NCBI RefSeq assembly: GCF_027627575.1 | Contig: NZ_CP114065.1 | Location: 6,014,001 to 6,078,000 of the forward strand | Reading direction: 5' to 3' | DNA: 64,000 nucleotides | Source of the DNA: Kribbella sp. CA-293567 | GTDB taxonomy: Bacteria; Actinomycetota; Actinomycetes; Propionibacteriales; Kribbellaceae | In this document: positions 1,202 to 55,763 of the stretch, one piece after another | Position numbering within the stretch: the first letter of the stretch is position 1 | Layout: each line of letters starts with the position of its first letter | The notes under the pieces: generated by a model | Told to the model about the DNA's origin: nothing | Seen by the model: the letters and a program-made list of their open reading frames with translations, nothing else | Database searches by the model: none | Position numbers and translations under genes: made by a program

Positions 1202-2635
1202 ATGATCCGCCCCCGTTGGTTCGCCCTGGTTCCGGGCGTCGCGCTCGCCGCGACCGCCCTGGTCACCACCAGCGCCAGTACCAGTACCGCCGCCCCGGTT
1301 CGCTACGAGTCCGAATCGGCCGCCATCTCCCAAGGACTCGTCGAGTCGAACCACGCCGGCTTCACCGGCTCCGGGTTCGTCAACTTCGACAACGTCGCCG
1401 GCAGTTCGGTGGAGTACACCGTGACCGCCCCGGCCGCCGGTCAGTACGCACTGACCTTCCGCTACGCCAACGGAACGACGGTCAACCGCCCGGTCGACGT
1501 CACCGTGAACAACGCTCTCGCCGCCGACGACCTGGGCTTCCAGGGCACCGGCGCGTGGACGGCGTACCAGACCGTCACCACCACCGCGACCCTCGTGGCC
1601 GGCACCAACAAGATCAAGACCACCGCGGTCACCGCGAACGGCGGCCCGAACGCCGACTCGCTGACCGTGGACGCCGTCCAGGGCCCCGGCCCCGGCGCCA
1701 CCCCGGTCTCGATCAACGGCCAACTGAAGGTCTGCGGCGTCAAGCTGTGCAACCAGTACAACAAGCCGATCCAGCTGCGCGGGATGAGCACGCACGGCAT
1801 CCAGTGGTACGCCAACTGCGTCAAGACCGCTTCGCTGGACGCGCTCGCCACCGACTGGAACGCCGACATCCTGCGGATCGCGATGTACATCCAGGAGGGT
1901 GGCTACGAGACCAACCCGCGCAAGTTCACCGACCTGGTGCACGGCTACATCGAGGAGGCCACCAAGCGCGGGATGTACGCGCTGGTCGACTGGCACCAGC
2001 TCACTCCCGGTGACCCGAACGCGAACCTGGCCAACGCGAAGACGTTCTTCACCGAGATCGCCGAGCGGCACAAGGACAAGAAGAACATCATCTACGACAT
2101 CGCCAACGAGCCGAACAACGTCTCCTGGGCCGCGATCAAGTCGTACGCCGAGCAGATGATCCCGGTGATCCGGGCCAAGGACTCCGACGCCGTCGTCTTC
2201 GTCGGCACCCACGGCTGGGGCTCGCTCGGCATCTCCGACGGCCGGACCGAGGCCGACGTGATCAACAACCCGATCAACGCCACCAACTTCATGTACACGT
2301 TCCACTTCTACGCCGCGTCGCACAAGACGGAGTACTTCAACGCCCTGTCCCGCGCCGCCGACAAGATTCCGCTGTTCATCACCGAGTTCGGCACCCAGAC
2401 CGCCAGCGGTGACGGCACCAACGACTTCACCAACTCGCAGAAGTACCTGGACTTCCTGGCCGCCAAGAAGATCGGCTGGACCAACTGGAACTTCTCCGAC
2501 GACTTCCGCTCCGGCGCGGTCTTCAAGGAAGGCACCTGCGCCGGGAACAACTTCACCGGTACGTCGGTCCTGAAGCCGGCCGGAGTCTGGATCCGCGACC
2601 GGATCCGCACCCCGGACGACTTCCCGACCAGCTAG
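1202..2635 (+). CDS. secreted CBM35-GH5 endoglucanase (cellulase)
   Basis: A 477-residue extracellular glycoside hydrolase that cleaves internal beta-glycosidic links, most likely in cellulose or mannan. A signal peptide covers about residues 1-31, followed by a CBM35/6-like carbohydrate-binding domain (about 33-155), a GPGPG linker and a GH5 TIM barrel (about 170-460). The catalytic acid/base is E303 in YDIANEPN and the nucleophile is E395 in FITEFGT. An AGGAGG-type ribosome site precedes the ATG. A strong promoter and a perfect palindromic operator lie upstream, and a GC-rich hairpin follows the stop. The next gene shares the same CBM, so the two may act on one polymer. Confidence 0.93.
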   Translation: MIRPRWFALVPGVALAATALVTTSASTSTAAPVRYESESAAISQGLVESNHAGFTGSGFVNFDNVAGSSVEYTVTAPAAGQYALTFRYANGTTVNRPVDVTVNNALAADDLGFQGTGAWTAYQTVTTTATLVAGTNKIKTTAVTANGGPNADSLTVDAVQGPGPGATPVSINGQLKVCGVKLCNQYNKPIQLRGMSTHGIQWYANCVKTASLDALATDWNADILRIAMYIQEGGYETNPRKFTDLVHGYIEEATKRGMYALVDWHQLTPGDPNANLANAKTFFTEIAERHKDKKNIIYDIANEPNNVSWAAIKSYAEQMIPVIRAKDSDAVVFVGTHGWGSLGISDGRTEADVINNPINATNFMYTFHFYAASHKTEYFNALSRAADKIPLFITEFGTQTASGDGTNDFTNSQKYLDFLAAKKIGWTNWNFSDDFRSGAVFKEGTCAGNNFTGTSVLKPAGVWIRDRIRTPDDFPTS

Positions 2636-2644
2636 CGGTTCCCC

Positions 2645-2674
2645 GGGCCGGCGCTACCGCCCCAGCGCCGGCCC
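2645..2674 (+). terminator. GC-rich hairpin after the cellulase gene
   Basis: GGGCCGGCGCT (2645-2655) and AGCGCCGGCCC (2664-2674) form a perfect 11-bp stem around an 8-nt loop. There is no U tract, as is common in high-GC actinobacteria. Confidence 0.6.
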
Positions 2675-2753
2675 GGCCTGCTCTATGCTGGACCTGTTTC
2701 CCCTGTGTACGACGCACCGCCCCCTCCGTCGTCCACCCGAAAGGCCCCAGCTC

Positions 2754-4205
2754 ATGGGACTCACGAAGTTCTTCCTGCCCGCCGTCCTGATCGCGGGTCT
2801 GCTTCCCGCGACCACGGCCTCCCCCGCCGCGGCGGCCCCGGTCCGCTACCAGGCAGAGTCGGCCACCATCTCCCAAGGCCTGGTCGAGTCCAACCACGCG
2901 GGCTTCACCGGCACCGGCTTCGTCAACGCCGACAACGTGGTCGGCAGCTACGTCCAGTGGAGCGTCCCCGCCTCGGCAGCCGGTCAGGCCACCCTCACGT
3001 TCCGGTTCGCGAACGGTACGACGGCCAACCGGTCCGGTGACATCACCGTCAACGGCGCCCTGGTCTCCGACGAACTCGCCTTCAACGGCACCGGTGCCTG
3101 GACCACCTGGCAGGACCGTGTCATCACGGTGAACCTCGCCGCCGGCACCAACACGATCCGGGCCACCTCCACCACCGCCGCCGGCCTGCCCAACCTGGAC
3201 GCCCTGGACGTGGACACCGCGCCCGCCCCGGTCCGCGGTACGCCGCAGACCCCGACGGACGTCACCACCGGCCTCGCGTTGCCCTGGGCAACTTCTTTCC
3301 TGCCCGACGGACAGTCCGCCCTGCTGACCGAGCGGAACAGCTTCCGGGTCTCCCGGGTCACCCTGAACGGCACCCGGACCACGGTCGGTACGGTCCCGAA
3401 CAGCGTCACCACCAACGGTGAGGGCGGCCTGATGGGCGTCGCGGTGTCACCGACCTGGAACGGCACCAGCGACCAGGCCGTCTACTTCTTCCATACCTCC
3501 AACGACGGCGGCCAGACCCAGAACCGGATCGTCCGGATGAACTTCAACGGCACCGCGCTGTCGAACCGGACCGTCATCGTCTCGGGCATCCGCAGCAACA
3601 CCTTCCACAACGGCGGCCAGCTCAAGTTCGGCCCCGACGGCTACCTGTACGCCGGAACCGGTGACGCCCAGGACACCTCCACCTCGCAGAACAACAACTC
3701 GCTCAACGGCAAGATCCTCCGCTTCACCACCAGCGGCGCGGCCGCTCCGGGCAACCCGTTCGGCACGCTGGTCTTCTCCAAGGGCCACCGCAACCCGCAG
3801 GGTCTCGCGTGGGACTCGGCCGGGCGGATGTGGTCGGCCGAGCTCGGTGACACCCAGGTGGACGAGCTGAACCTGATCATCAGCGGCCACAACTACGGCT
3901 GGCCGACCTGCCAGGGCAACTGCAGCACGCCTGGCATGGACAACCCGAAGCGCACCTGGACGACGGCCGAAGCCTCGCCGAGCAGCCTGGCCATCGTCAA
4001 CGACACCGCGTACGTCGCGGCCCTGCGTGGCCAGCGGCTGTGGCGCGTGGAGCTCAACGGCACCAGCGCCGGCGCGACCCAGGCCTACTTCACCAACACC
4101 TACGGAAGGCTCCGCTCGATCGTCAAGGTCCCCGGCGCCAACACCATCTGGATCAGCACCTCCAACACCACCAACGACCGGCTGCTGCGGTCCGAGATCC
4201 GCTGA
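2754..4205 (+). CDS. secreted CBM35-glucose/sorbosone dehydrogenase (PQQ-type beta-propeller)
   Basis: A 483-residue secreted protein. The start at 2754 is chosen because it opens a signal peptide (about residues 1-28); an earlier in-frame start would add a non-signal-like 23 residues. Residues 29-150 form a CBM35 closely resembling that of the preceding GH5 (both read ISQGLVESNHAGFTG). Residues about 165-483 match the GSDH fold (FLPDGQSALLTER, GHRNPQGLAWD, NYGWPTCQGNC). Family members oxidise sugars or polysaccharide ends using PQQ or a copper partner; the exact substrate is unknown. It probably works with the cellulase upstream. Confidence 0.85.
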   Translation: MGLTKFFLPAVLIAGLLPATTASPAAAAPVRYQAESATISQGLVESNHAGFTGTGFVNADNVVGSYVQWSVPASAAGQATLTFRFANGTTANRSGDITVNGALVSDELAFNGTGAWTTWQDRVITVNLAAGTNTIRATSTTAAGLPNLDALDVDTAPAPVRGTPQTPTDVTTGLALPWATSFLPDGQSALLTERNSFRVSRVTLNGTRTTVGTVPNSVTTNGEGGLMGVAVSPTWNGTSDQAVYFFHTSNDGGQTQNRIVRMNFNGTALSNRTVIVSGIRSNTFHNGGQLKFGPDGYLYAGTGDAQDTSTSQNNNSLNGKILRFTTSGAAAPGNPFGTLVFSKGHRNPQGLAWDSAGRMWSAELGDTQVDELNLIISGHNYGWPTCQGNCSTPGMDNPKRTWTTAEASPSSLAIVNDTAYVAALRGQRLWRVELNGTSAGATQAYFTNTYGRLRSIVKVPGANTIWISTSNTTNDRLLRSEIR

Positions 4206-4227: not shown

Positions 4228-5022
4228 CTATTTGGAGCCGGCCGCCCAGTGCGGAGGACGCGTGACCGACGAAGGGAGCTTGGTCTTGGCGTCACCTCGG
4301 GCCGCGTTGACCTGCGACTGGGTCAGGAAGAGCGCGCCGGTGAGGTCGGCCCCTTCCAGCCGGGCGTCACGAAGGTCGGCACCGATCAGATCCGCTCGCC
4401 GCAGGTCGGAGCCGCGGAGGTCTGCGGCGATCAGGTAAGCGCCCCGAAGATTCGCGGCACTGAGGTCCGCGCCGCGGAGTTTGGCCCCGAAAAGGTCAGC
4501 TCCGCGGCGTTCCTTGTTCCTGCTCTGCTTGCCGCGGACCAATGCGCTGGTTCGCAGCAGCAGCTCGTTCACCTTGGCTCGCTCGCCGGGCAGGTCGACG
4601 GAGGTGATGTCCGGCTGGCCGGTCAGCTTCTCGATCCGGTCGCTCGCCGCCCGCAACTGCGGATGGATGGCGCTGGTCTGCTCGAGCTCCAACGCTTCGG
4701 CGAGGTACCAGAGCAGCTCGTGCAGCTGCCGCATGATCGGCAGCGCCTCGAACATCTGCCGGCCGGGCTGCTCCCGCCAACTCTTGCCCGCCGCTCGGGA
4801 GATCTTCTGGCCGGCACCGAAACAGTCGTAGACCGTGCAGCCCTGGAAGCCGCTGGTCCGGAGCTTCTGGTGGATGCCGCAGCGGAAGCCTTCGTCCAGG
4901 TTCGGGCAGGGCTCGCCCGCGGCCTTGTCGATCGCGAAGTCGGCCGACTTCGCGAAGGTCAGGGCGACGCAGCACAGGCCGAAGCAGCTGCCGCAGTCCG
5001 CTCTGAGATCGGCTCTCAGCAC
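4228..5022 (-). CDS. pentapeptide-repeat protein with Cys-rich N-terminus
   Basis: A 264-residue protein. The GTG start at 5022 lies 5 bp after the prfB stop, so the two are co-transcribed. The N-terminal 70 residues hold a conserved cysteine cluster ([29 protein letters not shown]), and residues about 175-245 are A(D/N)LxG pentapeptide repeats that build a right-handed beta-helix. This architecture is widespread in actinobacteria; some pentapeptide proteins protect gyrase, but nothing here shows that. The cysteines may bind metal (inference). Confidence 0.85.
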
Positions 5023-5026
5023 ACCG

Positions 5027-6154
5027 TCAGTTCTGCTCGGCGGCGGTCTGGCCGGTCCGGCGCCAGCGGATGCCGGCCTCGATGAACTCGTCGATCTCGC
5101 CGTCGAAGACACCACTGGTGTTCCCGGACTCGTACAGGGTCCGGAGGTCCTTGACCATCTGGTACGGGTGCAGGACGTAGGAGCGCATCTGGTCGCCCCA
5201 CGAGCCCTGCACGTCGCCACGCAGCGAGTCGATCTCGGCCCGCTCCTCGGCCTTCTTCAGTGCCAGCAGCTTGGCCTTCAGGATCACCATCGCGGAGGCC
5301 TTGTTCTGCAGCTGCGACTTCTCGTTCTGGCAGGAGACCACGGTGCCGGTCGGAATGTGGGTCAGCCGGACCGCCGAGTCGGTGGTGTTGACGCTCTGAC
5401 CACCCGGACCGGACGACCGGTAGACGTCGATCCGCAGTTCCTCGTCCGGGATCTCGATCTCGTCGGTCTGCTCCAGCACCGGGACCACCTCGACGGCGGC
5501 GAACGAGGTCTGCCGGCGGCCCTGGTTGTCGAACGGCGAGATCCGGACCAGCCGGTGGGTACCGGTCTCGATGCTCAGCGTGCCGTACGCGTACGGCGCC
5601 TTGATGCCGAACGTGGTCGACTTGAGCCCGGCCTCTTCGGCGTACGACGTGTCGTAGACCTCCGTGCCGTAGCCGTGCCGCTCGGCCCAGCGCAGGTACA
5701 TCCGCTGCAGCATCTCGGCGAAGTCGGCGGCGTCGACGCCCCCCGCGCCGGAGCGGATCGTGACGAGCGCCTCGCGTACGTCGTACTCGCCGGACAGCAG
5801 GGTGCGGACCTCGAGGGACTGGACCGCCTTGGCCAGCGAGCCGATCTCCTTCTCCGCCTCTGCCAGGGTGTCCGCGTCGTTCTCCTCGCGGCCCATCTCG
5901 ACCATGATGTCCAGGTCGTCGATCCGGCCGCGCAGGGTGGTGACCCGGTCGAGGTCGGCCTCCAGCCGCGACAGCTTCGAGGTCACCTTCTGGGCGTTCG
6001 CCTGGTCGTTCCACAGGTCGGGTGCCGCGACCTGCTCTCCGAGGTCGGCAATCTCTCGGCGCATGCCCTCCAGATCGAGAACTTTCTCGATCGAGGTCAG
6101 GGTCGCGTCGAGTTGCTTCAGGTCAGCGTCGAAATCAGGTCCAGCCACAACCAA
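5027..6154 (-). CDS. prfB: peptide chain release factor 2
   Basis: A 375-residue class I release factor that recognises UGA and UAA and triggers hydrolysis of peptidyl-tRNA on the ribosome. The GGQ catalytic motif is seen in [11 protein letters not shown] (about residue 250), and the RF2-type SPF tripeptide in [10 protein letters not shown] gives UGA specificity. The gene is one uninterrupted frame and so lacks the programmed +1 frameshift of many RF2 genes. It is followed by the pentapeptide-repeat gene. Confidence 0.97.
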
Positions 6155-44370: not shown

Positions 44371-44402
44371 CGTCACCACTCGGGACCTCTGAGTGATATT
44401 TG
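44371..44402 (+). promoter_or_regulatory. operator-promoter site B for the sigma-like gene
   Basis: TCACCA, an 18-bp spacer filled by the operator, and TATTTG (44397-44402). The operator arms CCACTCGGG and TCTGAGTGA (44376-44396) follow the family pattern. Transcription from here would make a 5' leader of about 115 nt. Confidence 0.62.
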
Positions 44403-44433
44403 CTTTAAGCACCCGACTGACTTAGGTTCCTGA

Positions 44434-44454
44434 CCACTCGGAGGTTTCGAGTGA
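44434..44454 (+). promoter_or_regulatory. operator-family site C upstream of the sigma-like gene
   Basis: CCACTCGGA-GGT-TTCGAGTGA, one mismatch from a perfect inverted repeat. The -10 position (GAGCGG) is poor, so it may be an extra operator within the leader rather than a promoter. Confidence 0.6.
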
Positions 44455-44526
44455 GAGCGGGTCACTCGCGACCCCCTCCCGGCCCTCGCGGCCACCAATC
44501 CCCAACTCCCCCGGAGGCACTTCGCC

Positions 44527-45381
44527 ATGTCCGCTTTCTCCGCTGTCGCCACTCTAAACCTCTCAGTGGCCGACCAGTTCCGCCTCATCACCGACGCGCA
44601 GAACGTCCCCACCGAGACCGTCACCGACGAGGACGGAACCACCCGCACCGTCTACGGCCAGACCGTCGCCTCCGAGGCCGCCCTGACCCAGCTCTACACC
44701 GCGTTTCTCCCGGCCATCCGCAACGCCGCCCGGCAGACCTCGCAGGCCAACGGCACCGACGACGCCCTCATGGTCGCCACGGAGGCGTTCTTCCTCGCCA
44801 TCCGCGCCTTCGACCTGACGACTGAGTCCGCGCTCCACCACTCCATCTCCGCAATCCTCGTCCGCGCCGTGAAGCGCGCCGACCAGATCTCGGACGTAGT
44901 CGCCATCCCGGCAACGCCCGTCAAGCGCTATTGGCGCCTCGTGAACGACCACGACGGCGACGTCAAGGCCGCCTACGAAGCCGCAGGCGCCGACCGCGAC
45001 GACACGACCCGCCTCTCCAAGGCTGGCTTCCTCGCCGTCCACCGCGTCATGTCCGGCGTAAAGGACGTTGACGGCCTGGACGTCACAGACGTTGCCGACG
45101 GCAACCAGCCCGACGCCGCCTACCTGCTGTCCCTCGTCACGCCCCGGCAGGAGACCGCCCTCCGTCTCCGCTTCGGCTTTGACGACAACGACACCGAGGC
45201 CCTCCGCGAGCGCCACGAACACAAGCTCGGCTCGCAGATCCCGGACGTGGACCTCGTCCCGATCCTCAACGCGACCTTCCCCGCCCTCCCGCAGGTCTCC
45301 CGGCAGAAGGTCCAGCGCGAGCGGACCGCCGCCCTCGCCACCATGCGCGACGCCTGGACCGAAGAAATCAACGGCTACTGA
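44527..45381 (+). CDS. divergent sigma70-like RNA polymerase sigma factor
   Basis: A 284-residue protein. Residues 55-110 (YTAFLPAIRNAARQTS, ALMVATEAFFLAIRAFD) resemble sigma region 2; residues 145-155 (DVKAAYEAAG) a region-3-like element; residues 203-280 resemble region 4, with TPRQETALRLRFGF and the recognition-helix-like VSRQKVQRERTAALATMRD (compare VSRERVRQIE in RpoD types). An insertion at 217-250 separates 4.1 from 4.2. It is preceded by a terminator and two operator sites. It may direct RNA polymerase to the phage's repeated promoter-like elements. It could instead be a sigma-derived regulator. Confidence 0.68.
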   Translation: MSAFSAVATLNLSVADQFRLITDAQNVPTETVTDEDGTTRTVYGQTVASEAALTQLYTAFLPAIRNAARQTSQANGTDDALMVATEAFFLAIRAFDLTTESALHHSISAILVRAVKRADQISDVVAIPATPVKRYWRLVNDHDGDVKAAYEAAGADRDDTTRLSKAGFLAVHRVMSGVKDVDGLDVTDVADGNQPDAAYLLSLVTPRQETALRLRFGFDDNDTEALRERHEHKLGSQIPDVDLVPILNATFPALPQVSRQKVQRERTAALATMRDAWTEEINGY

Positions 45382-45409
45382 GCAAAGCGGCCACCGCTGA
45401 CCCACCTCC
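45379..45409 (+). promoter_or_regulatory. 31-bp repeat copy 8, promoter-like, downstream of the sigma-like gene
   Basis: TGAGCAAA, then CCGCTGACCCACCTCC ending at 45409. The TGA is the sigma-like gene's stop codon. The next start is at 45471. Confidence 0.62.
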
Positions 45410-47175: not shown

Positions 47176-47306
47176 CGTTTACACGCCCTGTCTCCCTCCC
47201 CCGCCCCGCACAACGGACTCACTGTCCCGAGTGCGGGGCGGTTCTCGTTTGGGCGGCCGGCCTGCCGATCCGGTGGGTTTGTCGAAACCCGCATCCGCCC
47301 CGGTGA
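47172..47306 (+). CDS. tiny zinc-ribbon-like protein
   Basis: 44 residues (GTG start). HCPECGAVLVWAAGLPIRWVCRNPH is a C-x2-C...C ribbon. A GTTTACAC octamer (47177-47184) covers its second to fifth codons. Its TGA begins 31-bp repeat copy 9. Confidence 0.52.
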   Translation: MTFTRPVSLPRPAQRTHCPECGAVLVWAAGLPIRWVCRNPHPPR

Positions 47307-47334
47307 GCAAAGCGGCCTCCGCTGACCTACCTCC
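47304..47334 (+). promoter_or_regulatory. 31-bp repeat copy 9, promoter-like, upstream of 47377 gene
   Basis: TGAGCAAA, then CCGCTGACCTACCTCC ending at 47334; the next ATG is 43 bp downstream. The TGA is the stop codon of the preceding gene. Confidence 0.6.
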
Positions 47335-49735: not shown

Positions 49736-49775
49736 GCCCCCGCCTCCCGGCCGCCCCTGGGAGTCGGGGGCTTTC
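49736..49775 (+). terminator. intrinsic terminator
   Basis: GCCCCCG (49736-49742) pairs with CGGGGGC (49765-49771), with further inner pairing CTCCC/GGGAG, followed by TTTC. It lies just upstream of operator-promoter D. Confidence 0.75.
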
Positions 49776-49781
49776 GTCGTT

Positions 49782-49817
49782 TTGCCACTCGGAGGTTCCG
49801 AGTGGTACTGTTTACAC
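49782..49817 (+). promoter_or_regulatory. operator-promoter site D
   Basis: TTGCCA (49782-49787), an 18-bp spacer and TACTGT (49806-49811). The spacer region is a perfect inverted repeat: arms CCACTCGGA and TCCGAGTGG around GGT (49785-49805). GTTTACAC (49810-49817) covers the end of the -10 and the start point. It drives the 49858-50770 genes. Confidence 0.8.
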
Positions 49818-49857
49818 ATCGGGCGGAACCACCGCCCCGAGGCCCCGGGAGGCCACC

Positions 49858-50121
49858 ATGACCCGCACCGCCAACCGCCACCGCTGCATCCACGGCGTGA
49901 CTCCCCGTTGCACTCGCGGCAACGGCAAGCCGAAGCGTCAGAAGTGCGCGGAATGCGGCGGCGCTCTCCTCGTGGAGTCCGGCGTGTTCGGCGTCTTCGA
50001 CCACCGCGGAGACGGCCGGTACCGCCTGGCCGACGCGCACGCGACCTACGCGATGGAGGCCGCCGCGACGCGCGAAGCCGCAAAGGACATGCGCCGCGTC
50101 GTGCGCTTCATCACCGCCTGA
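49858..50121 (+). CDS. small Cys-rich phage protein
   Basis: 87 residues. HRCIHGVTPRCTRGNGKPKRQKCAECGGALLVESG resembles a zinc ribbon, followed by a basic helix (YAMEAAATREAAKDMRRVVRF). It is the first gene under operator-promoter D. Its TGA begins the 57-nt hairpin element copy 1. Confidence 0.55.
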   Translation: MTRTANRHRCIHGVTPRCTRGNGKPKRQKCAECGGALLVESGVFGVFDHRGDGRYRLADAHATYAMEAAATREAAKDMRRVVRFITA

Positions 50122-50175
50122 TCGGGCGACAGTCGGCGGCGCCTCTAGCAGGCGCCGCCCATCGGCCGCCCGGCC
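50119..50175 (+). repeat. 57-nt structured 3'UTR element, copy 1
   Basis: Begins at the TGA stop of the 49858 gene. Stem GGCGGCGCC/GGCGCCGCC lies between conserved flanks (ATCGGGC...CAGTC and CATCGGCCGCCCGGCC). Copy 2 at 52048 keeps the flanks but has a different stem with compensating changes, so the RNA structure appears conserved. Confidence 0.7.
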
Positions 50176-50204
50176 GCCTTCACCAACCGAGAGGACCCAC
50201 CACC

Positions 50205-50510
50205 ATGGCCACCCGCACCCTCGCCACCCTCCGCGACGGCATCCCGCTCCCCTTCGACTGCAAGCCCTTCCGCGGCCCGAAGCTCACGAATGCCGGCAAG
50301 CCCTTCGAGCCGAAGCCGCGCGCCGCCGGTGACCGCCTGGAGATCACCGGCATTGACGGCGCCGAGGTTCTCGCCGAGGTGTGGGGTCCGGCCCTTGGCG
50401 CCGGTTGCGTCTGGGCCGTCGCCGACAACGTGGCCTACCTCGTGTCGAAGTCCGGCGCCGTCCTGGAGAACCGCGACTACCGCCGCCCGGCCGCCGAGGT
50501 GGCCGCGTGA
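50205..50510 (+). CDS. phage protein of unknown function
   Basis: 101 residues. Beta-rich (AAGDRLEITGIDGAEVLAEVWGPALGAGCVWAVADNVAYLVSKSGAVLENRDYRR). ATG behind GAGAGGA. Stop overlaps the next GTG. Confidence 0.55.
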   Translation: MATRTLATLRDGIPLPFDCKPFRGPKLTNAGKPFEPKPRAAGDRLEITGIDGAEVLAEVWGPALGAGCVWAVADNVAYLVSKSGAVLENRDYRRPAAEVAA

Positions 50511-50770
50511 GCCGCTCGAACCCCCGCTCGCCTGAGTGGGCCGTGTACTTCCGCAACCACCCCGAGGTCATCGCCTCGTGGGGCGAGTCGAACGGCCGAG
50601 CGCCTAACTGTCGGTGCGAGCCGTGCGAGTCCGATCTCTGCGCGGACTGCCTCCTCGCCCTGGACGCACACTGCGAGGAGTGCGGCGAGTGCTACTGCGA
50701 GGACGCCGCTTGCCTAGACGAGGACGAGGACGACTGGCTTTCTCGTTTGCCACTCGAAACCTCCGAGTGA
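50507..50770 (+). CDS. Cys-rich (zinc-binding) small phage protein
   Basis: 87 residues (GTG start). Eleven cysteines in 40 residues (CRCEPCESDLCADC, HCEECGECYCEDAAC) suggest two zinc sites. The 3' end of the gene contains operator-promoter E. Unknown function. Confidence 0.57.
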   Translation: MSRSNPRSPEWAVYFRNHPEVIASWGESNGRAPNCRCEPCESDLCADCLLALDAHCEECGECYCEDAACLDEDEDDWLSRLPLETSE

Positions 50771-50782
50771 TATTGTTTACAC
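50747..50782 (+). promoter_or_regulatory. operator-promoter site E for the SprT-like gene
   Basis: TTGCCA (50747-50752), 18-bp spacer, TATTGT (50771-50776). The operator is CCACTCGAA...TCCGAGTGA (50750-50770); GTTTACAC at 50775-50782. It overlaps the end of the upstream gene. Confidence 0.75.
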
Positions 50783-50825
50783 GTTGGGCCGGAACGACCG
50801 GCCCTCGGACCGCCCGGAGGGCCTC

Positions 50826-51419
50826 ATGACCGCCAAGCACAACACCCGCGAAGAGTGGCTCACCGCCGCAATCGCCGCCGTCGCCCCGCTCTTCGTTGCC
50901 AACGGCCACCAGCTCCCCGCGGTCCGCGTCTCGGTCGGCTTCCCCGGCGGCCGGGGTAACAAGACCTCCGTCATCGGGCAGTGCTGGCAGCCCGCCGCCT
51001 CGGCGGACGGCATCGGACAAATCTTCGTCTCCCCCATCCTCGGCGACGCGCCGACCGTCCTCTCCACGTTGGTTCACGAGTTGGTTCACGCCGTCAACCA
51101 CGCGAACGGCGACAGCGGCCACGGCAAAGAGTTCTCCGCGATCGCCAAGCCGCTCGGCCTCGTCGGCAAGATGACCGCCACCACGGCAGGCGAGACCCTC
51201 GCCGCCAACCTCGCCGCCACCTCCACCCTCCTCGGCGACTACCCGCACGCCGCCCTCACCCCCGCCCTCTCCGGCGTGAAAAAGCAGGGGACGCGGATGC
51301 TCAAGGTGACTTGCCCGGAGGACGGCTACCAGCTCCGCACAACCGCCAAGTGGTTGGCCGTCGGCGTCCCGACCTGCCCCTGTGGAACCGAGATGGAGGC
51401 CGAGGTCCCCTCCGAATGA
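50826..51419 (+). CDS. SprT-like zinc metalloprotease
   Basis: A 197-residue protein. The zincin motif is HELVHAVNH (H84, E85, H88) with a likely third ligand in GHGKEF near H99, and the C-terminus has a small Cys ribbon (VTCPEDGYQ and TCPCGTEM). SprT/Spartan proteins can cleave proteins cross-linked to DNA or host factors. A role in replication or take-over is plausible but unproven. It has its own operator-promoter. Confidence 0.85.
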   Translation: MTAKHNTREEWLTAAIAAVAPLFVANGHQLPAVRVSVGFPGGRGNKTSVIGQCWQPAASADGIGQIFVSPILGDAPTVLSTLVHELVHAVNHANGDSGHGKEFSAIAKPLGLVGKMTATTAGETLAANLAATSTLLGDYPHAALTPALSGVKKQGTRMLKVTCPEDGYQLRTTAKWLAVGVPTCPCGTEMEAEVPSE

Positions 51420-51459
51420 CCGGCAGTCGGCCGGGCCGTCACGGGGCGGCTCGGCCGAT

Positions 51460-51495
51460 TTGCCACTCTGAACCTCCGAGTGGTACTGTTTACAC
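51460..51495 (+). promoter_or_regulatory. operator-promoter site F, leaderless start
   Basis: TTGCCA (51460-51465), 18-bp spacer, TACTGT (51484-51489). The operator is CCACTCTGA...TCCGAGTGG (51463-51483); GTTTACAC at 51488-51495. The ATG begins at 51496, seven bases after the -10, so the mRNA probably starts at the initiation codon. Confidence 0.82.
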
Positions 51496-52050
51496 ATGAC
51501 GACGACGCGCAAGGCCACCACGACAGTCACCCACCCCGACGGCACCGTCTCGAAGCGGAACAGCGTTTCGAAGGTTTACACCCACGCGATCGAAGTTGCC
51601 GACGACAACCACATGGAGGCCGCCGAGCTGGCCCGCCTCGCGGAGCGCCGCGAAGCCGAGGCCGAGCAGTACAGCCGGGCGCTGGCCGAGGGTCACGTTG
51701 TGATCCGCGCCGAGCGGTGGGCCTTCGGTGGCCGTCGCCTGAAGTTCGCCCTGATCGACACCGCAACCGACGCCGAGCTGTACGCCGGAGCGCACATCGT
51801 CACCGACGAGGGCGTCCTCGCCACGAACTCCAAGGAAGCGGACGTCCCTTCCTCCGCCGCCCACACCATCGAGAGCCTGACCGCCGACGCCGCCCGCCTC
51901 CGCAAGCAGGCCGCCAAGCTGGCCGCCGGACCGCAGACCTCCTACGGCGTCGTTCGCTGGAGTCAGACCGAGCGCTCCGCCGTCGCCGCCCTCGCCTCGT
52001 TCAACCGCGCGGGCCGCGTCGCCCGCGTCGTCCCCGTAGACGCCGCCTGA
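51496..52050 (+). CDS. phage protein translated from a leaderless mRNA
   Basis: 184 residues. A Thr-rich start (MTTTRKATTTVTHPDGTVSKRNSVSKVYTHAIEVA) precedes helices with AERREAEAEQYSRALAEG and a C-terminal half. No ribosome site exists because the ATG coincides with the predicted transcription start. A second GTTTACAC octamer is inside (51574). Its TGA begins hairpin element copy 2. Function unknown. Confidence 0.68.
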   Translation: MTTTRKATTTVTHPDGTVSKRNSVSKVYTHAIEVADDNHMEAAELARLAERREAEAEQYSRALAEGHVVIRAERWAFGGRRLKFALIDTATDAELYAGAHIVTDEGVLATNSKEADVPSSAAHTIESLTADAARLRKQAAKLAAGPQTSYGVVRWSQTERSAVAALASFNRAGRVARVVPVDAA

Positions 52051-52104
52051 TCGGGCCGCAGTCGGCCGGGCCTCTCGAAGGTCCGGCCCATCGGCCGCCC
52101 GGCC
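52048..52104 (+). repeat. 57-nt structured 3'UTR element, copy 2
   Basis: The same layout as 50119-50175, beginning at the stop codon of the 51496 gene. The stem GGCCGGGCC/GGTCCGGCC differs from copy 1 but still pairs. The sequence after the 50826 gene (from 51417) shows a partial third copy (CAGTCGGCCGGGCC). Confidence 0.7.
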
Positions 52105-52139: not shown

Positions 52140-52433
52140 ATGCACATCGACACCGCACACAAGACCAAGACCTCCACCGGCGAATGGTGCGGAGCGCGCG
52201 GCGAACAGCTCATTGCCTACAAGACGAAGAGCCTCACCGGCGAGCGCGTCGTTGCTATCCGCTGGCCCGAGGGCTCGGACCGCTTCGGCTTCGCCGCGGG
52301 CGACGTCGAGCTGAAGCACATCACTGGCGACGCATGGCACAAGCCCGAGGCGTTCGTTGAGCACCACCGCATGGTTCTCCCGAACGGCACCAACGCGGAG
52401 GTTGCAGCGTACGTCGCCGAGCGCCTCGGCTAG
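52140..52433 (+). CDS. phage protein of unknown function
   Basis: 97 residues; ATG behind AAGGGGA. MHIDTAHKTKTSTGEWCGARGEQLIAYKTKSLTGERVVAIRW shows an internal repeat of the K-T-K-S/T-x-T-G-E motif. Last gene of the rightward accessory block; a terminator follows. Confidence 0.57.
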   Translation: MHIDTAHKTKTSTGEWCGARGEQLIAYKTKSLTGERVVAIRWPEGSDRFGFAAGDVELKHITGDAWHKPEAFVEHHRMVLPNGTNAEVAAYVAERLG

Positions 52434-55656: not shown

Positions 55657-55763
55657 GGGAAGCAGGGAGCAGGCGGGGTGACCCCTTTTCCTACCTCTTA
55701 CTCTGCGCCCTCGCATTGGAGAGAGGTAGGAAAAGGGGTCACCCCCCCTGCTCCCTGCTTCCC
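55657..55763. repeat. 107-bp palindromic element, copy 2
   Basis: Two 42-nt arms (55657-55698 and 55722-55763) match at 41 of 42 positions around a 23-nt loop that differs from copy 1 at one base. It lies 70 bp inside attR. As RNA it would form a 42-bp duplex from either strand; as DNA it could extrude a cruciform. It may be a bidirectional terminator guarding the phage end, an RNase III substrate or a small non-autonomous mobile palindrome. Confidence 0.92.

Follow-up and report, generated by a model that had tools for sequence, protein, structure and literature searches.

Organization of the Locus

The window (the whole 64,000-nucleotide stretch of Kribbella sp. CA-293567 DNA that was analysed) contains a prophage gene block in which two copies of a 57-nt element and a partial third copy lie behind open reading frames on the forward strand. 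The features of this block are listed by position in the window.

49736..49781, + strand: terminator-like hairpin with a T-rich tail, reported by the terminator scan and listed for contrast; it lies just before the first of the three promoter-like sites
49783..49819, 50748-50784, and 51461-51497, + strand: near-identical operator-promoter-like repeats
49858..50121, + strand: ORF upstream of copy 1, PHROG 4958 (unknown function)
50119..50175, + strand: element copy 1, which opens with the TGA that ends ORF 49858-50121; the outer helix pairs 50123-50127 with 50168-50172 and the inner helix 50135-50144 with 50150-50159, and the cores are GACAGTC (5′, 50128-50134) and CATCGGCC (3′, 50160-50167)
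50205..50510, + strand: next ORF after copy 1; its start codon lies 75 nt past CAGTC
50826..51419, + strand: SprT-like gene, followed by the partial third copy
51417..51460, + strand: partial third copy, after the SprT-like gene, with GCAGTCGGCCGGGCC in common with copy 2
51496..52050, + strand: ORF preceding copy 2; the family searches gave no match
52048..52104, + strand: element copy 2, which opens with the TGA that ends ORF 51496-52050; the outer helix pairs 52052-52056 with 52097-52101 and the inner helix 52064-52073 with 52079-52088, and the cores are CGCAGTC (5′, 52057-52063) and CATCGGCC (3′, 52089-52096)
52140..52433, + strand: next ORF after copy 2; its start codon lies 81 nt past CAGTC

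Copies 1 and 2 were identical at 48 of 57 positions. By part, the 5′ flanks shared 14 of 16 positions, the 3′ flanks all 16, and the hairpins 18 of 25. Within the 9-bp stem, two pairs differed on both sides and one G-C pair was replaced by G·U; stem pairing was therefore retained in both copies, with one pair now a wobble. These results confirmed the original prediction of two 57-nt copies, each starting at a stop codon (TGA at both), with nearly identical flanks and a stem that was altered while its pairing was kept. A pattern built from both copies had no other match in the window (none was expected by chance, from 100 shuffles), and the same pattern found only copies 1 and 2 in the 7.6-Mb host genome. 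Both 57-mers folded more stably than their dinucleotide shuffles, with z values of −3.6 and −2.8.

The partial third copy, which had been predicted behind the SprT-like gene from position 51417, was also found there and shared 15 nt with copy 2. Its outer helix and 3′ core were lost, and it scored only 21 bits (E 0.027) against the covariance model R1. The remaining sequence folded into a single 16-bp hairpin that leads into TTTG and lies immediately upstream of a promoter-like site; it looks like a terminator.

One putative operator-promoter site was located upstream of the gene preceding each of the three elements. Five near-identical palindromic operator-like sites were present in the window, at 44376-44456 and 49783-51497, and promoter-like TACTGTTTACACAT or TATTGTTTACACGT was found behind three of the five. 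The protein encoded at 51496-52050 had no relative in viral contigs, and the SprT-like protein had none in 37 other genomes of the host genus. Two further repeats were observed in the window. A 31-nt repeat (94% identical) occurred at 45379-45409 and 47304-47334; its first copy started at the stop codon of ORF 44527-45381, and it contained a small AGCGG/CCGCT hairpin. A 42-nt inverted repeat whose arms are 98% complementary across a 23-nt spacer was located at 55657-55763, outside the studied gene block.

Relatives in Other Phages

Viral contigs were scanned six times with DNA patterns and twice with proteins. Members were accepted on the pairing of the inner and outer helices and on covariance model R1, which was built from copy 1, copy 2, and the first relative. 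Seven good members were obtained in five phages or prophages, namely the two window copies and five elements in four phage contigs.

Contig L011: 4742-4803 and 2876-2932
Contig L299: 5583-5644, minus strand
Contig L304: 2093-2145
Contig L345 (IMGVR_UViG_3300046694_000291): 2718-2780, minus strand

The pattern matches in viral contigs were mostly due to chance. In three scans, 1 of 39, 3 of 17, and 4 of 30 matched stretches were real; the last scan gave 2 of 39, both already known. One further viral pattern scan gave one real element among the 120 matches listed. All four carrier contigs were found with patterns that presumed the core. When the DUF932 protein was used to seek more carriers in viral contigs, only the known L299 and L304 contigs were recovered. 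Two divergent candidates, L345d (25.8 bits) and L011a (19.3 bits), were left out of the seven, as was the divergent third copy of the window.

A structural descriptor was also run over 465 loci (3.5 Mb, duplicates and pattern-selected stretches included) and gave no new member. Five known members scored 41–47, the next best match scored 35.6, and the reversed control reached up to 34.4. The L304 element scored 27.2, within the noise of that descriptor, and the L345 element was not reported because its inner helix is interrupted. These two were accepted as members on pattern, model score, and context.

No member was accepted in the bacterial genomes beyond the host's own. The pattern of copies 1 and 2 had no match in 37 other genomes of the host genus. 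Model R1 matched 11 of 394 class genomes; the match in the own genome was strong, and those in the 10 others (E 0.0045–0.09; stretches L284-L293) were judged to be chance after their sequences were read. The core pattern matched 11 of 396 phylum genomes, and all matches outside the own genome failed stem pairing. It also matched 31 of 392 genomes of the genus of G149, where the matches that had a locus (all but one) were rejected on stem pairing. These samples of 394, 396, and 392 genomes overlap. Model R2 had no match in the same 392 genomes; only 14 candidates were scored per genome, so this empty result carries no weight. A pattern scan of genome contigs gave no member among the 120 matches listed.

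Named phages gave no credible match by blastn with single elements. Ten named phages of Microbacterium, Arthrobacter, and Streptomyces were searched whole with R2, and none of the matches was accepted (best 22.1 bits); the gaps of one named phage were also read, and no member was accepted there. Plasmids gave no match to the region.

Structure and Covariation of the Element

The elements were predicted to fold on one plan, in which a conserved internal loop joins an outer helix of 5–6 bp to a variable inner hairpin of roughly 7–12 bp. The internal loop reads NNCAGUC on the 5′ side and NNUCGGCC on the 3′ side. CAGUC and UCGGCC were invariant in all seven members, although the patterns used to find them partly presumed these letters. 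The internal loop, which the original prediction had not named, is the most conserved feature of the element. No element of the window or the carrier contigs had a match in Rfam 15 at the gathering cut-off.

In alignment A4, which comprised six members (the L304 element with its bulged inner helix was left out, and the L345 row was imperfectly aligned), 93.8% of the cells paired, and 11 of 19 pairs were changed on both sides. The covariation score was 0.547, compared with 0.214 for shuffled alignments (0 of 500 reached the observed score) and at most 0.112 with slid partners. The arms of all seven members were also compared by permutation. In the inner arms, 50 of 56 positions paired, and the only one of 5040 arm permutations that did as well was the true assignment. 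In the outer arms, 35 of 35 positions paired, matched only by the 120 permutations that swap five identical stems. Three different outer stems occurred (CGGGC/GCCCG, CATGC/GCATG, and CGAGC/GCTCG), so the outer helix covaries as well. The interrupted inner helices of L304 and L345 paired at 6 of 8 and 4 of 8 positions, respectively, in a simple register.

The antisense strand gave the more stable fold in five of eight elements; folding energy therefore cannot tell the strand. In the inner helices, G·U exceeded A·C by only 3 to 1.

The covariation check with more homologues that had been proposed thus gave a positive result, and an RNA module with compensatory stem changes is well supported. The original prediction had further suggested a shared module for termination or stability. 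The shared module was upheld by the covariation, while termination was not upheld for copies 1 and 2.

Position of the Element between Genes

All seven elements lay in a gap behind a stop codon and ahead of the following start codon, in sense with both neighbouring genes. The distance from the stop codon to CAGTC was exactly 11 nt in four elements, 12 nt in one, and 18 nt in two. The next start lay 67–81 nt past CAGTC in six of the seven, as judged from automatic start picks; the picks for L011c, L011a, L345d, and copy 3 were implausible and were left out. The 12 nt behind each of the seven elements contained 0–4 T, which does not constitute a U-tract. The setting is intercistronic and is not the end of an operon.

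The proteins encoded downstream of the elements were unrelated in an all-versus-all comparison, except for the DUF932 pair of L299 and L304. Linkage of the element to a particular gene was rejected, since the flanking proteins were unrelated apart from this pair and the overlap of two ORFs of the window. The ORFs of the carriers were then compared, covering the window, L011, L345 (first 80 kb of its 84 kb), L299, and L304; two of these carriers are fragments (27.6 and 10 kb). No ORF product of at least 60 aa was common to all carriers at E 1e-6, and a phage-encoded partner was rejected on this basis.

Hammerhead Ribozymes near the Elements

Two type II hammerheads (RF02276) were detected on the minus strand of the L345 contig, at 4593-4655 and 4985-5046 of locus L419, with 51.2 and 43.9 bits. 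The L345 contig shows local similarity to Streptomyces phages. Elements lay at 3910-3972 and 1458-1525 of the same locus, on the same strand and in the same gene block, 0.6–3.6 kb from the hammerheads. The first hammerhead was located after a TGA and before a ribosome site and ATG, the same stop-to-start slot as that of the elements. The leader behind this hammerhead and the leader behind element L345d both carried CCGACCACGGAAG. The second hammerhead had no obvious stop codon directly before it.

Type II hammerheads are known self-cleavers, with a core of CUGANGA/GAAA. Their description, and that of hammerheads in phage intergenic regions, can be found in the literature (PMC3088659). Hammerhead-like strings (GGACGAAAC ... 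CTGACGAGTCC and variants) were also seen on the minus strand of Streptomyces phage Rooney (L369, MZ648033.1), just before ribosome sites, in gaps near 930-1020, 1295-1400, and 2335-3180; they scored below the Rfam cut-off.

Function of the Element

For the function of the element, stability or processing is preferred over termination. The element is tentatively read as a cis-acting intercistronic mRNA processing site in a polycistronic phage message that works like the RNase III sites of T7, a proposal given somewhat less than an even chance. The RNA right behind the upstream stop codon would fold into a rod of outer helix, internal loop, and inner hairpin. A factor of the host would bind this rod and cut in or beside the internal loop; the double-strand-specific RNase III is the likeliest candidate. 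The cut would free an upstream message that retains a protective 3′ hairpin, and the downstream message would begin at a new 5′ end close ahead of its ribosome-binding site. We infer transcription of the genes as one message, its cleavage, the enzyme, and an effect on expression.

Intercistronic processing is considered the best reading on account of the T7-like plan of the element and of the hammerheads that share a gene block with it in one carrier. A host factor is suggested by the lack of an ORF product of at least 60 aa common to all carriers. The sequence requirements of RNase III are normally slight, so the strong conservation of the internal loop may point to a protein other than RNase III. 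The host genome encodes an RNase III gene, and Streptomyces RNase III is described as cutting mRNA (PMC2936110).

The internal loop could instead be catalytic itself, in which case the invariant CAGUC/UCGGCC would form a new small ribozyme. Self-cleavage of this kind would explain both the shared gene block with type II hammerheads and the lack of a protein common to the carriers, but it is regarded as very improbable.

An attenuator or partial terminator is an unlikely but more serious alternative, in which the hairpin would cause some of the RNA polymerase to stop once past the first gene downstream of each promoter, thereby lowering the second gene. The GC-rich hairpins are very stable and lie at or just past the stop codon, the third copy is a plain 16-bp hairpin followed by TTTG and then by a promoter-like site, and actinobacterial terminators often do without a long U-tract. 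Yet no U-tract follows any of the seven elements, and the terminator scan omitted copies 1 and 2 while listing the hairpin with a T-rich tail that precedes the first promoter of the three. Termination was rejected on these two grounds as the main reading of copies 1 and 2, which are unlikely to be terminators. An attenuator would also leave the invariant loop between two changing helices unexplained. Equally, neither this loop nor the nearly fixed distances to the preceding stop and the following start would be needed by a rod that merely blocks 3′ exonucleases after processing elsewhere and has no cut of its own. Such a passive 3′-end protector would suit the position past stop codons and the high stability, and it is considered improbable.

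Protein sites on RNA typically contain a conserved internal loop flanked by two helices, and the element lies close upstream of ribosome-binding sites. It could therefore be bound rather than cut, by a regulatory protein or the ribosome, as a translational operator or an antiterminator RNA of the put or EAR type. This seems rather improbable: in the predicted fold, the ribosome-binding site behind copy 1 is outside the rod, and no protein (ORFs of at least 60 aa) was found in common among the carriers, two of which are fragments, so the binder would be a host protein. Function at the DNA level, as a protein-binding palindrome or an attC-like cassette-recombination site, is held to be most improbable. 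The elements are imperfect palindromes directly past stop codons, and the antisense strand folds equally well; however, the stem letters vary freely while pairing is kept, which is unexpected for a double-stranded DNA site, and the elements are always in sense between co-directional genes. The core boxes of integron attC sites are GTTRRRY. None was seen by eye in the element sequences, and the host genome holds only two copies.

The element matters as a well-supported structured RNA whose internal loop is conserved, which has no counterpart in Rfam, and which occurs in otherwise unrelated actinobacterial phages. If it is an mRNA processing site, actinophages would split their polycistronic messages with interchangeable modules, either self-cleaving ribozymes or protein-dependent rods. 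This would open the question of how the levels of adjacent genes are set by phages whose hosts are GC-rich. The element is also a compact candidate substrate for actinobacterial RNase III.

Comparison with Known Systems

The titles and abstract openings of open-licence literature on actinophage RNA structure, RNase III, hammerheads, repeats, and Kribbella prophages contained no description of the element. Intrinsic terminators likewise have a GC-rich hairpin past the stop codon, but the elements differ from them in having no U-tract, a conserved internal loop, and the next gene directly behind. The ESAS repeats of cluster K mycobacteriophages are described as imperfect inverted repeats with a variable spacer, located upstream of several gene starts and of unknown function (PMC3203893). 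The ESAS arms follow a conserved 17-bp inverted-repeat consensus tied to a start-associated sequence, whereas the arms of the element vary and its internal loop is conserved.

The type II hammerheads share with the element the gene block and strand of L345, the slot between stop and start in one case, and a leader sequence. They differ in structure, the hammerhead having a three-way core that self-cleaves and the element a single internal loop. No element matched the Rfam hammerhead model.

The early gene gaps of T7, which we take to hold RNase III sites, were folded for comparison. An inner hairpin of 9–13 bp was obtained in five of six gaps and an outer stem across an internal loop in three of six; two of the five hairpin-bearing gaps thus folded without an outer stem, which counts against the T7-like plan. 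On reading, the T7 gaps contained no CAGTC/TCGGCC core and had a different internal loop, and no sequence relation to the element was seen. T7 is an AT-richer coliphage, whereas the elements occur in GC-rich actinophages and their cleavage is a prediction. The T7 early RNase III sites resemble the elements in their helices, split in some gaps by an internal loop, their position between stop and start codons, and their occurrence in several copies per early region.
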